Source: Luteithermobacter gelatinilyticus (GTDB lineage Bacteria > Pseudomonadota > Alphaproteobacteria > Sphingomonadales > Emcibacteraceae). Taken from it: a stretch of DNA of 64,000 nucleotides. The number at the start of each line of letters is the position of its first letter. Within the stretch, counting starts at the first letter, position 1. The position numbers and the translations under genes were made by a program. The stretch covers positions 2,672,501 to 2,736,500 of the forward strand of contig NZ_CP040517.1 in NCBI RefSeq assembly GCF_005849285.1. The letters run 5' to 3'. Positions 17,578 through 59,619 of the stretch are shown here, in pieces. Below the pieces are notes generated by a model. It did no database searches, was not told where the DNA came from, and saw nothing but the letters and a program-made list of their open reading frames with translations.

Positions 17578-18087
17578 ATGATACCCCCTTCCGATCACAT
17601 GGAAATCGAACGCAAGTTTTTGGTCCGCAAACTGCCTAAGGAAGCGCCGGTCAAACAGCAGAATATTCGCCAAGGATATATTGCCCGTGAAAATGGCAAT
17701 ACAGTCCGCATTCGCCAGAAAGATCAAAATTATATCCTCAGCATCAAGGCCGCCCGCAGCGCAACTGTCCGTTATGAACTGGAATATGACGTGAGCGAAC
17801 GGGACGCCAGGCTTTTGTTCGAGATCTGCACCGGACCGGTAATTGAAAAAACCCGGAAAATCTATCATCATAGGGGGCATGTCTGGGAGGTGGATATCTT
17901 TCACGGCCGTAATGCTGGGCTGGTCATTGCCGAGGTTGAGCTGAAAAGCGCCGAGGAGGGGGTGAAGGTGCCGGACTGGATCGGCCGGGAAGTAAGCACC
18001 GATGAACGGTTTTTTAACGCCTATCTGTTTTCTCGGCCGTTTCAGGACTGGGGGCTGAGTTATGAGGACCTCCTGGATGGCAAATAG
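17578..18087 (+). CDS. CYTH-domain protein (triphosphate tunnel metalloenzyme family)
   Basis: The 169-residue protein begins its domain with EIERKFLV, the ExExK signature that gives CYTH enzymes a metal/triphosphate site. RQGYIA, TVRIRQK and YELEYDV, then IAEVELKS near the C-terminal side, supply the alternating charged strands of the tunnel. Members hydrolyse inorganic triphosphate or similar substrates; the exact one here is unknown. ATG 17578 is used, though MEIERKF at 17599 could also serve. The TAG stop (18085-18087) is the first triplet of an interspersed palindromic repeat, so the C-terminus has been fixed by that insertion. A CHAD protein is encoded convergently. Confidence 0.85.
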   Translation: MIPPSDHMEIERKFLVRKLPKEAPVKQQNIRQGYIARENGNTVRIRQKDQNYILSIKAARSATVRYELEYDVSERDARLLFEICTGPVIEKTRKIYHHRGHVWEVDIFHGRNAGLVIAEVELKSAEEGVKVPDWIGREVSTDERFFNAYLFSRPFQDWGLSYEDLLDGK

Positions 18088-18133
18088 AGTGAATTGTGAA
18101 TAGGTTGACCCATTCTGCCGGTCAGCTCTGGCC
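18085..18133 (+). repeat. TAGAGTGAATTG-family repeat, single long end
   Basis: Begins TAGAGTGAATTGTGAATAGG and continues TTGACCCATTCTGCCGGTCA, matching the right end (reverse strand) of the 270-bp element at 53830-54099. It supplies the stop codon of the CYTH gene, then loses similarity. Confidence 0.85.
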
Positions 18134-23769: not shown

Positions 23770-23806
23770 TAGAGTGAATTGTGATGAGATTGACTCTAGA
23801 GTGAAA
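23770..23806 (+). repeat. TAGAGTGAATTG-family repeat between hprK and rapZ
   Basis: TAGAGTGAATTGTGATGAG and ATTGACTC are followed directly by a second TAGAGTGAA in the same orientation, so two left ends are adjacent. It lies 46 bases after hprK and 24 bases before the rapZ start. Confidence 0.75.
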
Positions 23807-32135: not shown

Positions 32136-32173
32136 TAGAGTGAATTAGGTCAATCTATTCACAATTCACGCTA
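32136..32173. repeat. 38-bp short palindromic form of the TAGAGTGAATTG family
   Basis: Starts TAGAGTGAATT and ends AATTCACGCTA, nearly an 11-bp inverted repeat; on the reverse strand it reads GTGAATTGTGAATAG. It sits between the S9 peptidase and the PerM-type permease, immediately before the latter's ribosome-binding site. Confidence 0.85.
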
Positions 32174-40658: not shown

Positions 40659-40677
40659 TAGAGTGAATTGTGATGAG
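40659..40677 (+). repeat. Fragment of a TAGAGTGAATTG-family repeat upstream of the LysR gene
   Basis: TAGAGTGAATTGTGATGAG, one left end only, the same variant as at 23770. It lies 12 bases before the regulator's ATG, inside the 5' untranslated region. Confidence 0.7.
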
Positions 40678-40689
40678 GGGTGGAGTATC

Positions 40690-41592
40690 ATGTTTGAACT
40701 GTATCAGTTGCGCTATTTCCTGGCGGTCGTGGAAACCGGAAGTTTCACCAAGGCCGCAGACCGGGTGTTTGTCACCCAGCCCACCTTGTCCGCAGGGATT
40801 CACAAACTTGAACAGGCGCTGGGCGTGCGGCTTTTCGACCGCTCCAGCAAACGGGTTTTCCTGACCGAAAGCGGCAGCCGTTTTGTGGACCGCGCCAAGG
40901 CCATTTTGCATCAGGTCAGTCTGGCGGAAGCGGAGATGCGCGCGGCCGAAAGCCCGAAAATCCTGAGACTCGGGGTTTTGATGACCATTCCCGGCGCAGT
41001 GGTTCACCACCTTCTTCATCCGTTCCGACGTGAAGAACCCGGCCTGGTGATCGAACTTTTTGAAGGCACCGAGCAGGAAATCCAGAACCGCCTGGATTCC
41101 GGGCGTATTGATATTGCCCTGACGATCCTCAGGCCTGGTTACAAATCCGGTCTGAAATCCCGGACCTTGTCTCTATACAGGGACCGTTATTCCGTGGCCA
41201 TCGCCAGTCATCATCCGCTGGCCGCCAAACGCAGCCTGCATCCCCGGGATCTGGCGGATGAGCCAACCATTGTGCGCAGCCGCTGTGAAATTCTCAGTGA
41301 AACCAGCCGATTTTTCACCGATCACAATGTGCGCCCGCGCCTGGTTTACCGCACGACCCAGGATGAGCGGGCCTTGATGATGGTGGCGGCCGGCATCGGC
41401 TTTACCACCATGCCCAACCAGTACCGGATGGAAGGGGTTGCGCGCCTGCCGCTCGAAGGGTATGACTTTGACCGCATTCTGGGCCTTGTTTGGACCTCGA
41501 CCCCCCTGAGCGCGGAACGCGAGAACCTGCTCACCCGTTTTGGAGATTTTGCCGGAACCCTCCTGCCTGCCCTGACCTATGAGACAACCTGA
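40690..41592 (+). CDS. LysR-family transcriptional regulator
   Basis: 300 residues from the ATG at 40690 (the open frame reaches 40618 but begins inside the promoter dyad). The N-terminal winged helix is typical: LRYFLAVVETGSFTKAADRV, QPTLSAGIHKLEQALGVRLF. The C-terminal effector-binding domain follows. It is divergent from the leucine-degradation operon and overlaps the AEC transporter start by one base, so it may sense a branched-chain or CoA-derived metabolite; the ligand is unknown. Confidence 0.9.
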   Translation: MFELYQLRYFLAVVETGSFTKAADRVFVTQPTLSAGIHKLEQALGVRLFDRSSKRVFLTESGSRFVDRAKAILHQVSLAEAEMRAAESPKILRLGVLMTIPGAVVHHLLHPFRREEPGLVIELFEGTEQEIQNRLDSGRIDIALTILRPGYKSGLKSRTLSLYRDRYSVAIASHHPLAAKRSLHPRDLADEPTIVRSRCEILSETSRFFTDHNVRPRLVYRTTQDERALMMVAAGIGFTTMPNQYRMEGVARLPLEGYDFDRILGLVWTSTPLSAERENLLTRFGDFAGTLLPALTYETT

Positions 41593-42467
41593 TGTTTTCT
41601 GAACTTTTCGCCATCATCGCCCCGGTTTTTCTGATCGCCTTGATCGGATATGTTCTGGTCAGACAGGGCATGGAATTCCCGTCGGATTTCATCACCAGAA
41701 TGAACATGAATATCGGCGCCCCCGCACTGGTTTTTAACGGCATCATGGGCATGGGCGACAAAATTTTCGCGGCCAGCGACTTTTTTATTGCCGCCTTCAT
41801 CGCCATTATGGGGTTATTGCTGGTCAGTCTGGCAGTCACAACATTCGCCGGCCTGCCCCGGCGGGGATATGTGATCGCCCTTTATTCGACCAATTCCGGT
41901 AATATGGGGTTGCCGCTGTGCCTGTTTGCCTTTGGCGAACAAGGATTCGGCCTCGGGGTGGCGTTTTTCGCCGTCAGCGTGATTTTCCAGTTCACCCTGG
42001 CCCTGTTCATCGCCCACGGCAATCTCACGGCCGCCAGCCTGACCCGGGTAACCCTGCTATGGGGGATTGCGCTGGCCTTTGCCTTTATCCTGACCGACAC
42101 CACACCCCCGGCCTGGTTCAGTAACACCACACAACTTCTGGGGGGCCTGACCATCCCGCTCATGTTGCTGACCCTGGGGGCGTCTCTCGCCCGACTCAAG
42201 GTGGACAAGTCCGGCGAATTGATCCTGCTGTCGTTTTTCAAGATCCTGATTGGTGTGGGCATTGGTTACTTCACAGCCGTCCTGTTCGGTTTTACAGGCA
42301 TTGAGAGAAATGTGCTGATCCTGCAAAGCTCCATGCCGGTCGCCATTTTCAGTTACCTTCTCGCCAGTCAATATAACCGCAATCCGCAAGACGTGGCCGC
42401 CATGGTGCTGATCAGCACTCTGATGTCCACCATCAGCATCCCCGTCCTTCTGACCTGGATGCTTTAG
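41592..42467 (+). CDS. AEC-family transporter (auxin efflux carrier type)
   Basis: 291 residues with about ten hydrophobic helices and the internal repeat of AEC permeases (FAIIAPVFLIALIGYVLVRQ; YSTNSGNMGLPLCLFAFGE; QSSMPVAIFSYLLASQYN). Bacterial members move carboxylates such as malate or malonate. It is co-transcribed with the LysR gene (the ATG overlaps the LysR TGA) and so may import or export an acid linked to leucine catabolism. Its stop codon TAG (42465-42467) is the first triplet of a palindromic repeat. Confidence 0.88.
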   Translation: MFSELFAIIAPVFLIALIGYVLVRQGMEFPSDFITRMNMNIGAPALVFNGIMGMGDKIFAASDFFIAAFIAIMGLLLVSLAVTTFAGLPRRGYVIALYSTNSGNMGLPLCLFAFGEQGFGLGVAFFAVSVIFQFTLALFIAHGNLTAASLTRVTLLWGIALAFAFILTDTTPPAWFSNTTQLLGGLTIPLMLLTLGASLARLKVDKSGELILLSFFKILIGVGIGYFTAVLFGFTGIERNVLILQSSMPVAIFSYLLASQYNRNPQDVAAMVLISTLMSTISIPVLLTWML

Positions 42468-42503
42468 AGTGAATTGTGAACAGGTAGACTCGATTCACTC
42501 TTA
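42465..42503. repeat. 39-bp short palindromic form of the TAGAGTGAATTG family
   Basis: Begins TAGAGTGAATTGTGAACAGG and ends GATTCACTCTTA; the two ends pair as a 10-bp inverted repeat. It supplies the stop codon of the AEC gene and can act as a hairpin at the 3' end of the mRNA. Confidence 0.87.
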
Positions 42504-50892: not shown

Positions 50893-50968
50893 TAGAGTAA
50901 ATTGTGAATAGGTTGACCCATTCTGCCGGTCAGGTCTGATTCAGGAGCCAGGGGGTTTGGCGCAGGCC
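50893..50968 (+). repeat. TAGAGTGAATTG-family repeat, 76-bp right-end copy
   Basis: TAGAGTAAATTGTGAATAGG, then CCATTCTGCCGGTCAGGTCT and CAGGAGCCAGGGGGTTTGG, which matches the reverse complement of the right end of the element at 53830-54099 as far as GGCGCAGGCC. Similarity then stops, so it is truncated. Confidence 0.88.
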
Positions 50969-53811: not shown

Positions 53812-53831
53812 CCTATGCACAATTCACTCTA
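53812..53831 (-). repeat. Right-end remnant of the TAGAGTGAATTG family
   Basis: CCTATGCACAATTCACTCTA is the reverse complement of an element end and joins head-to-head with the full element. The junction CACAATTCACTCT and AGAGTGAATTGTG at 53818-53843 is a perfect 26-bp palindrome centred on CTAG. Confidence 0.85.
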
Positions 53832-54099
53832 GAGTGAATTGTGAATAGGTTGGCTCAATTCTGTTGACGGATTGCGGCCCGCCTCACGCAGAAGACGGCG
53901 CCGGGCGATGCGGGACATCGGGCCAGGCGTCTGACAACGTGAGCGGCCCCAAGCCGCCAACCCGAAGGGCCGGGCCGATCTGGTCCAGTTCCGGCGGGGT
54001 TTGGCTTGGCCGTACCGCCAGTATGGCCTGCGCCAAACCCCTGGCTCCTGAACCAGACCTGACCGGCAGAATGGGTCAACCTATGCACAATTCACTCTG
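53830..54099. mobile_element. MITE-like element with terminal inverted repeats (longest copy)
   Basis: About 270 bp. The left end is TAGAGTGAATTGTGAATAGG and the right end, reversed, GAGTGAATTGTGCATAGG followed by TTGACCCATTCTG; the ends pair for about 24 of 27 bases. The interior is GC-rich with internal dyads and has no transposase or other gene. The left edge is TA, the usual target duplication of IS630/Tc1-type elements; the right edge has become GG. Eight other loci in the window carry short or partial copies. Confidence 0.8.
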
Positions 54100-54362
54100 G
54101 GCCGTGTTCTCTCGACTTTTGGCAGGCGACTTTTTTGGCAAGCGACTTTTCGGGCAAAACTGTCATATTTTTTTACAGAAAGATCACCAACTGTCCTATT
54201 TTAAAACAGTTCTCAAAGTGAAATTTTTATCAGGGGCCAAAAAACAGCCAGACCGGAAATGCCGGGCATAATCTTGCAATACAGGAAAATTTGGGAAATA
54301 GCTGGCCATACGCCAGTTTGCCGCAGGATGCGACAGCCACCAAAAAAACAGGATTAACAGGG

Positions 54363-55380: not shown

Positions 55381-55887
55381 ATGACCAATATTACCAAATA
55401 TCTGCTGATCATATCCGCCCTTGTTGTCGCCATTGGCGGAGGGTTGTCATTCTATTATGCCAGCCAGAGTTATTATGCAGAGAGCCTGGTTTATGGCAAT
55501 GATCAGGGGATTGCCCTGAACGGTTACGACCCGGTGGCCTATTTCACCGAAAAATATCCCATCCGCGGCAAGGCGGATTATGAGGTTCAGTGGGCGGGAT
55601 CGACCTGGCGTTTCTATACACCGTCCCACCGGGACGCCTTTGCCGCCGCCCCCAATAATTATGCCCCTCAATATGGTGGATATGACCCGCTATCGGTGGC
55701 CAAGGGCTATACCACGCCTACCGATCCGGAAGTCTGGCTGGTGGAGGCCGGCAAGCTGTATCTGTTTTATTCCGAGGAACGCAAAAAATACTGGCAGGAA
55801 AACCGGCATAATACGCTGTTGCAGGCCAACGCCAACTGGGAACGTTTAAGAAGCCAACTCCAGTACCGCCAGTCCCAGAAAGACTAG
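55381..55887 (+). CDS. YHS-domain membrane-anchored protein
   Basis: 168 residues. An N-terminal uncleaved membrane segment (YLLIISALVVAIGGGLSFYY) precedes a YHS domain (ALNGYDPVAYFTEK, YEVQWAGSTWRFYTPSHRDAF, YGGYDPLSVAKGYTTPTDPE). YHS domains are linked to metal handling, but the Cys residues found in some metal-binding members are missing here. The C-terminus is Gln/Asn-rich. The TAG stop is the edge of a 38-bp repeat, so the end of the protein may have been set by that insertion. Confidence 0.88.
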   Translation: MTNITKYLLIISALVVAIGGGLSFYYASQSYYAESLVYGNDQGIALNGYDPVAYFTEKYPIRGKADYEVQWAGSTWRFYTPSHRDAFAAAPNNYAPQYGGYDPLSVAKGYTTPTDPEVWLVEAGKLYLFYSEERKKYWQENRHNTLLQANANWERLRSQLQYRQSQKD

Positions 55888-55922
55888 AGTGAATTGAGCC
55901 GACTTATTCACAATTCATTCTA
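55885..55922. repeat. 38-bp short palindromic form of the TAGAGTGAATTG family
   Basis: TAGAGTGAATTG at one end and CAATTCATTCTA at the other pair as an 11-12-bp inverted repeat. It provides the stop codon of the YHS gene. Beyond it TCATTCTAACGCA is tandemly repeated (55928-55953), duplicating the element's right edge. Confidence 0.88.
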
Positions 55923-59301: not shown

Positions 59302-59619
59302 CCCGCCACGTCAATCCCGTTAAAGTGCCCTGTGATGAAATTGACTTAGAGTGAATTGTGCATAGGTTGCCCCATTCTGCCGGTCAGGTCTGGCCATACC
59401 CTGGACAAAAAAAGATGTATGTATTTGAATCTTCATAAAAAGTTTTGGGCAACATTCGGGACAAGACGATCTCAGAAAAGCGCAGCCCTGTGGACGCCCT
59501 GTCCTGATCCGCCACGAAAATACCGTTTTTGTAAAGAATCTGACAGATAAATTCAGTTTTGAGTTGGAAAACGCAACTTAATCCAATATACATACTTCCC
59601 AGCAGAAAGGGAGTAATAC
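59302..59619. other. Intergenic region before exbD with a repeat end
   Basis: Contains a single end of the TAGAGTGAATTG family (59347-59394), then about 220 bases with no supported gene, ending in an AAAGGGAG site seven bases before the exbD ATG. Confidence 0.6.
59347..59394 (+). repeat. TAGAGTGAATTG-family repeat, single 48-bp end
   Basis: TAGAGTGAATTGTGCATAGG continued by CCCATTCTGCCGGTCAGGTC, matching the right end of the full element in reverse orientation. Truncated after TCTGGCC. Confidence 0.85.

Follow-up and report, generated by a model that had tools for sequence, protein, structure and literature searches.

Putative IS630-dependent miniature elements in Luteithermobacter gelatinilyticus: a 270-bp form with relatives in other Alphaproteobacteria and an exact 38-bp short form

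Palindromic repeats in the window and in the genome

The window, that is, the whole stretch of 64,000 nucleotides that was analysed, is part of the single 3,145,891-bp contig of Luteithermobacter gelatinilyticus and contains a long repeat element, several short palindromes and a number of solitary ends (Table 1). The 20-nt end TAGAGTGAATTGTGAATAGG common to these features has 11 matches in the window at up to three mismatches, compared with a mean of 0.01 and a maximum of 1 in dinucleotide shuffles, and every one of the roughly nine loci listed in the original prediction was recovered. Over the entire contig, the same threshold returns 295 ends (147 forward and 148 reverse) and 0 for the reversed control; the copies are thus not confined to the window. 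The one element of about 270 bp carries both ends, as had been proposed, and with respect to a transposase its description as gene-free is borne out: the 38-296 bp forms contain no transposase gene, and the only two DDE_3 matches of the genome (E ≤ 0.001) lie elsewhere, in elements of 1,058 bp. The mechanical ORF 53864-54271 extends beyond the long element, whose predicted RNA fold has a z-score of -7.8. The remaining copies in the window are short or single-end forms, again as proposed: three are 38 bp long (32136, 42465 and 55885), and six have one 20-nt end. The end at 40659 was seen by eye to lie just upstream of the start of an apparent LysR-type gene and may touch its leader.

Table 1. 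Repeat features of the window (positions refer to the 64,000-nt stretch).
Positions	Strand	Feature	Remarks
53830-54099		Full-length long-form MITE, 270 bp	End A (53830, +) TAGAGTGAATTGTGAATAGGTTGGCTCAATTCTG; end B (54080-54099, -) CAGAGTGAATTGTGCATAGGTTGACCCATTCTG
53936-54075	+	Interior core matched in other Alphaproteobacteria (model R1)	Covariance model
53812-53831	-	Solo end	Adjoins the long element; TA common to both
18085-18104	+	Single end, truncated end-B type	TAG is the stop codon of ORF 17599-18087 (CYTH domain)
23770-23789	+	Single diverged end	3 mismatches
40659-40678	+	Single end	Overlaps a script-predicted gene start
50893-50912	+	Single end, truncated end-B type	
59347-59366	+	Single end, truncated end-B type	
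32136-32173	-	38-bp short form	1 bp upstream of the next predicted gene
42465-42502	+	38-bp short form	Its first TAG serves as stop codon for ORF 41592-42467 (Mem_trans transporter)
55885-55922	-	38-bp short form	TAG at its edge serves as stop codon for ORF 55381-55887 (YHS-domain protein)

A census was taken over 864 kb, comprising the window and 40 stretches of 20 kb placed every 60 kb over the first 2.36 Mb. It yielded 67 copies: 37 short, 8 long (one a 163-bp deletion form) and 22 single ends; one 293-bp pairing, which joins a short copy and a single end, was left out of the long class. Long copies measure 270, 283 or 296 bp; the 13-bp increments come from an internal repeat, whose tandem unit (CCCAGGCGTCTGA or near) is present in one to three copies per element (L005, L023, L129 and L135). 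Deletion forms of 163 and 143 bp occur, and nine 270-bp copies share a mean identity of 97%. The short class is sharply defined, as 37 of the 38 arm pairs with a middle of 10-18 nt in the sample are exactly 38 bp long. Its consensus, TAGAGTGAATTGTGAATAGGTTGGCTCAATTCACTCTA, consists of 12-bp arms around a 14-nt middle, and 98 copies are found genome-wide at up to three mismatches with position 15 left free (46 and 52 on the two strands; control 0). When all arm pairs 24-320 bp apart were collected (at most two mismatches per arm), 34 had a length of 38, the lengths 29, 33, 44 and 45 occurred once each, and those between 52 and 94 were accounted for by one tandem array (52, 66, 80 and 94) and a chance pair. 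The 44-bp (L131:17587-17630) and 45-bp (L152:6954-6998) palindromes are other tiny forms built from the same end. At L143:14217-14310, a short copy adjoins a 14-bp tandem array (CAGACTGAATTGGC) that resembles the edge of the element itself. The original prediction was right that short forms exist, and missed their exact 38-bp length, their landing at stop codons and the combination of private ends with a shared interior.

Outside this genome the 20-nt end was not found: 0 of 59 other genomes of the family and order contain it at up to two mismatches, 0 of 395 other genomes of the order at up to one, and no viral contig carries its exact pattern. Rfam returned no match at the gathering score in the window and in nine relatives, and its two matches at a relaxed threshold were both at chance level. 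No name for such repeats appears among the matches listed in the open-access literature (titles and abstract beginnings), in keeping with the earlier statement that no named family was recognised, and one may exist in ISfinder or in subscription papers.

A resident IS630 with matching ends and insertion at TA

The two DDE_3 matches of the genome (PF13358, E 7e-37 and 1e-36) both fall within elements of 1,058 bp, whose left boundary is TAGAGTGAATTGTGAAAAGG and whose right boundary, in inward reading, is TAGAGTCTTTTGTTAATAGG. These elements combine a DDE_3 catalytic domain, TA-edged ends and a length of about 1 kb, and on these grounds belong to the IS630 family. Each has two overlapping reading frames, and the location of the overlap at a run of eight A suggests frameshifting. 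The left end agrees with the repeat end at 19 of 20 positions, the right end less well (16 of 20). The original prediction had taken the TA edges of the repeats as a sign of an IS630/Tc1-like transposase elsewhere; such an element with matching terminal repeats is indeed present twice, and the TA edges stand in a YTAR context. The repeats are multi-copy, have paired terminal inverted repeats and match at their ends an IS630 of the same genome, as expected of an IS630-dependent MITE. Of 80 related IS630 loci, 45 were scanned for ends: 33 have TAGA at both best-scoring ends, most with lengths near 1,050 bp, and the remaining 12 gave no such pair in the scan. Derivation of the MITE interior from an IS630 was considered and rejected, since the 80 loci gave only short, weak matches (24-49 bp, E 0.002).

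TA is present at both edges in 36 of the 45 short or long copies, and the joined context is YTAR in 32 of these 36 and CTAG in 12; the background frequency of YTAR among intergenic and stop-codon TA sites is 17.5%. A preference of IS630 for CTAG has been published (Tenzen and Ohtsubo, 1991, cited in PMC2170065).

Landing at stop codons

The TAG stop codon of a predicted gene is supplied by 19 of the 67 sampled copies, three of them in the window, with the genes taken from a simple codon-usage script (682 genes) whose prediction is approximate. When the target context is allowed for, 12 of 34 landings are at stop codons, against 4.1 expected (P 0.0004), and 10 of these 12 lie between convergent genes. 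Part of the excess could be slight truncations. One 38-mer (L130) ends a protein of 1,467 residues, for which 9 of 31 genomes gave a match, its own included; leaving out those that were partial or at contig ends (L196-L199), five full-length orthologues remain. They belong to three other genera and end at that same residue, with TAG, TGA, TAA, TAA and TAA as stop codons and in genomes without the 20-nt end. The landing of this copy therefore left the protein unchanged. The element starts with TAG when the target TA is counted, so insertion into a TAA or TAG stop codon would leave the encoded protein as it was; such landings would survive selection and accumulate, and selection is presumably the cause of their excess. 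TAG tips together with TA insertion would explain in a simple way why an element can land safely on stop codons, as observed in this genome and in Rhizobium.

Relatives across the Alphaproteobacteria

A BLAST search of plasmids with the long element returned 39 records from Rhizobium, Sinorhizobium and their allies; these matches are at about 70% and span at most half of the element. The matched stretches are themselves MITEs, and their 32-bp inverted repeats begin with AGAGCCTTTCCGGGTTAGATTGA. The Rhizobium form in turn was matched at 439 places distributed over 202 plasmid records, 131 of them with at least 80% of the query covered at one place. Two-piece matches such as L206 (Rhizobium phaseoli) indicate Rhizobium copies some 80 bp longer, perhaps with an insert inside the element. 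Three filled Rhizobium loci have empty relatives, with a single TA in four empty records, flanks that are 94-97% identical and the junctions CATGCTC-TA-GGAGCG, TTCAGGAC-TA-GCGCGG and CCACAGC-TA-ATTGCC; a fifth record (L260), for which the script resolved no junction, is not among the four. Empty TA sites in relatives, as anticipated by the original prediction, are thus documented for the Rhizobium branch (three loci, four records), while for the present genome only orthologues ending at the same residue are available. Both states are annotated at two of the Rhizobium loci, and the gene end is unchanged (a fucosidase and a glycosyltransferase). Eight annotated Rhizobium copies were picked for gene overlap, so that their proportions give no rate: by coordinates, seven provide the stop of the gene through their own TAG (confirmed in the sequence letters of three), and in the eighth the overlap is 19 nt.

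A covariance model of the interior core matched 13 of 385 genomes of the class at E ≤ 0.001, the own genome included (12 other); this is probably a lower bound, the model having been built on nine sequences from two sources and applied with strict filters. It also matches the opposite strand, both in the window (53969-54067) and in relatives, and the core is itself partly palindromic. From the 30 loci returned, 27 lie in other genomes, and at 11 of these the TAG-type ends are paired, with agreement at 20 or more of 26 positions; these 11 come from eight genomes (G493, G537, G597, G621, G640, G659, G778 and G779). Fifteen gave no paired ends in the scan, several being at contig ends; G416 showed one TAG-type end, G495 none, and G491 was not anchorable. 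The last of the 27, L219 of G524, has TATCCC-type instead of TAG-type ends; this core match (L219:1501-1644; 47% GC) stands between TATCCCAGTAATATT inverted repeats, not TAGAG, and may be a body with another end or a chance match. By sequence, then, this genome has ends of its own, while parts of the interior are common across the class.

Ten aligned paired-end relatives are 268-272 bp long. For nine lineages, each represented by one row of the 13 aligned, pairwise identity averages 0.91 and 0.83 in the tips, 0.70 and 0.71 in the two subterminal blocks and 0.72 in the 23-bp centre; the other interior parts tested average 0.49 and 0.53, and both address blocks (6-22 and 249-265) average 0.40. 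Since the two ends agree with each other within each aligned relative and address identity between lineages is low, the addresses change together, while the tips, the length and several inner blocks stay. Correspondence of the address to the ends of a resident IS630, which holds in the present genome, was not supported in other lineages: 2 of the 12 genomes have an IS630 relative at E ≤ 1e-20, with no nearby TAGAG site above 16 of 24, and eight Rhizobiaceae IS630 loci gave a best match of 18 of 24. This failure could reflect lost partners, draft assemblies that drop IS copies or more distant transposases, or the idea could be wrong outside this genome. Tiny forms with TAGAGY.TGATC arms (this arm only, 0 mismatches) were absent from 20 genomes carrying related IS630s.

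Interpretation and alternatives

Taken together, the repeats are very probably MITEs of the IS630/Tc1-mariner type that are moved by the resident IS630 and insert at TA in a YTAR context, with stop-codon landings tolerated and with the 270-bp form belonging to an Alphaproteobacteria-wide lineage whose address changes. Under this explanation, one or both of the IS630-family elements of about 1,058 bp elsewhere in the genome would produce a transposase that recognises ends like TAGAGTGAATTGTGAANAGGTTGG, acts in trans on the copies and inserts them at TA, preferably within CTAG or YTAR. The 270-bp form would be one member of a lineage spread over the Alphaproteobacteria in which length, tips, subterminal blocks and centre are kept, and in which an address block of about 17 nt varies from lineage to lineage, presumably as a fit to different IS630 transposases; the changes of address would follow the transposase. 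Movement of REP/BIME-type repeats by a Y1 (RAYT) transposase instead of an IS630 would also yield short intergenic palindromes in hundreds of copies, and is nevertheless barely credible here, given the TA edges and YTAR target, the match of the ends to the resident IS630, the long full elements and the empty TA sites in relatives.

How the 38-bp form spread is a separate question. Rather than by movement, the palindrome could have been kept by selection as a functional site, such as a protein-binding site, an mRNA hairpin or a terminator at gene ends; its arms vary less than its middle, a 12-bp stem is predicted to fold at -14 kcal/mol (z -4), the flanking genes are convergent at most of the stop-codon landings, and two stem pairs show matched changes in one diverged copy (L153:18540-18577) that is not among the 98. 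Within the 98 copies, however, stem changes comprise 61 one-sided and 0 double, and the YTAR context of the TA edges, the absence from the other genomes of the order and the ends in common with an insertion sequence also speak against such a site, which we regard as improbable. Far more serious is the proposal, to which we would assign somewhat less than an even chance, that the 38-bp copies are collapsed long copies: the long element, which forms a hairpin, has direct CAATTC repeats at 27-32 and 259-264, and replication slippage between them would leave exactly 38 bp. The 38-mer is the exact product of deleting everything between the two CAATTC copies, and among 13 direct-repeat pairs of at least 6 bp only CAATTC leaves the outermost nucleotides of one end fused to the opposite end. 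The identity of the 38-mer with the CAATTC-bounded deletion suggests slippage at a hairpin as the way in which the form would have arisen. Moreover, the transposase of ISY100, a relative, protects about 24 bp per end and probably needs 24 bp at each end (PMC2170065), which is more than 38 bp can hold twice; arm divergence is alike in short (2.4%) and long (2.1%) copies; and 14 Rhizobiaceae records contained no tiny form with exact arms.

Against collapse, length 38 outnumbers every other short length. Against recent collapse of today's long copies in particular, 33 of the 98 short copies carry variants seen in 0 of 16 long ones (P 0.005), a weak comparison because the choice of variants was made after inspection and because many of the long copies came from loci selected for near-perfect ends. 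G17 occurs in 7 of 16 long and 8 of 98 short copies (P 0.001), with the long sample again biased towards near-perfect ends. The arms of the 38-mers vary less than the middle (61/2352 versus 90/1274, P 5e-10), although shared variants account for much of this difference and P is 0.04 once the shared-variant sites are removed. A column-shuffle test for shared haplotypes among the 98 short copies gave 2 pairs versus 1.6 expected, and 46 versus 97 for all identical pairs, and thus no excess. On balance, independent movement of the 38-mer is very slightly ahead of collapse. The most far-reaching version of the preferred, IS630-dependent reading is a single ancient, non-coding IS630 parasite that persists across the Alphaproteobacteria, keeps a body of about 270 bp and has both addresses of about 17 nt rewritten time and again to the resident IS630, together with a 38-bp form that is shorter than two binding sites and has nonetheless spread to about a hundred places; in this full form it is a tentative and rather doubtful proposal. 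If this is true, with one body common to many families and concerted rewriting of both ends, a MITE would be a long-lived lineage that switches helpers, and the evolution of end recognition by transposases could be read from nature. The 38-bp form raises the question of the smallest movable IS630 element.

Comparison with known systems

To our knowledge, bacterial MITEs tend to be described species by species, as by-products of one insertion sequence. The IS630 family, including ISRel6 and ISRm2011-2, resembles the present repeats in its TAGAG tips and, with members of about 1.05 kb, is the presumed source of the transposase; its elements are autonomous, unlike a MITE. The ERIC sequences of enterobacteria are palindromic, intergenic, MITE-like repeats inserted at TA, and by this description they are similar to the elements reported here, with a different host. 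Correia elements (NEMIS) of Neisseria were likened to these repeats from the outset and are similar in concept, being described as short inverted-repeat elements in over a hundred copies (PMC10969869), and differ by description in having 26-bp repeats around up to 156 bp (PMC3049150). The main text of a 2024 review of prokaryotic MITEs contains no occurrence of IS630, rhizob- or alphaproteobact- (PMC10969869). Landing at stop codons is known in kind from the BOX elements of Streptococcus pneumoniae, which are described as supplying the stop codon of 36 CDS with no clear truncation; these are modular (boxA, boxB and boxC), with ends likened to ISSpn2 (PMC3049150). The nearest system in its working, as far as the published descriptions go, is RUP of S. 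pneumoniae together with IS630-Spn1, in which a non-coding element of 107 bp is present in about a hundred copies, has ends like those of the resident IS630-Spn1 and targets TA (PMC2229807, PMC3049150). Compared with RUP by description, the present repeats have another host and size, fall into two size classes, one of them 38 bp, and possess an interior with class-wide relatives.
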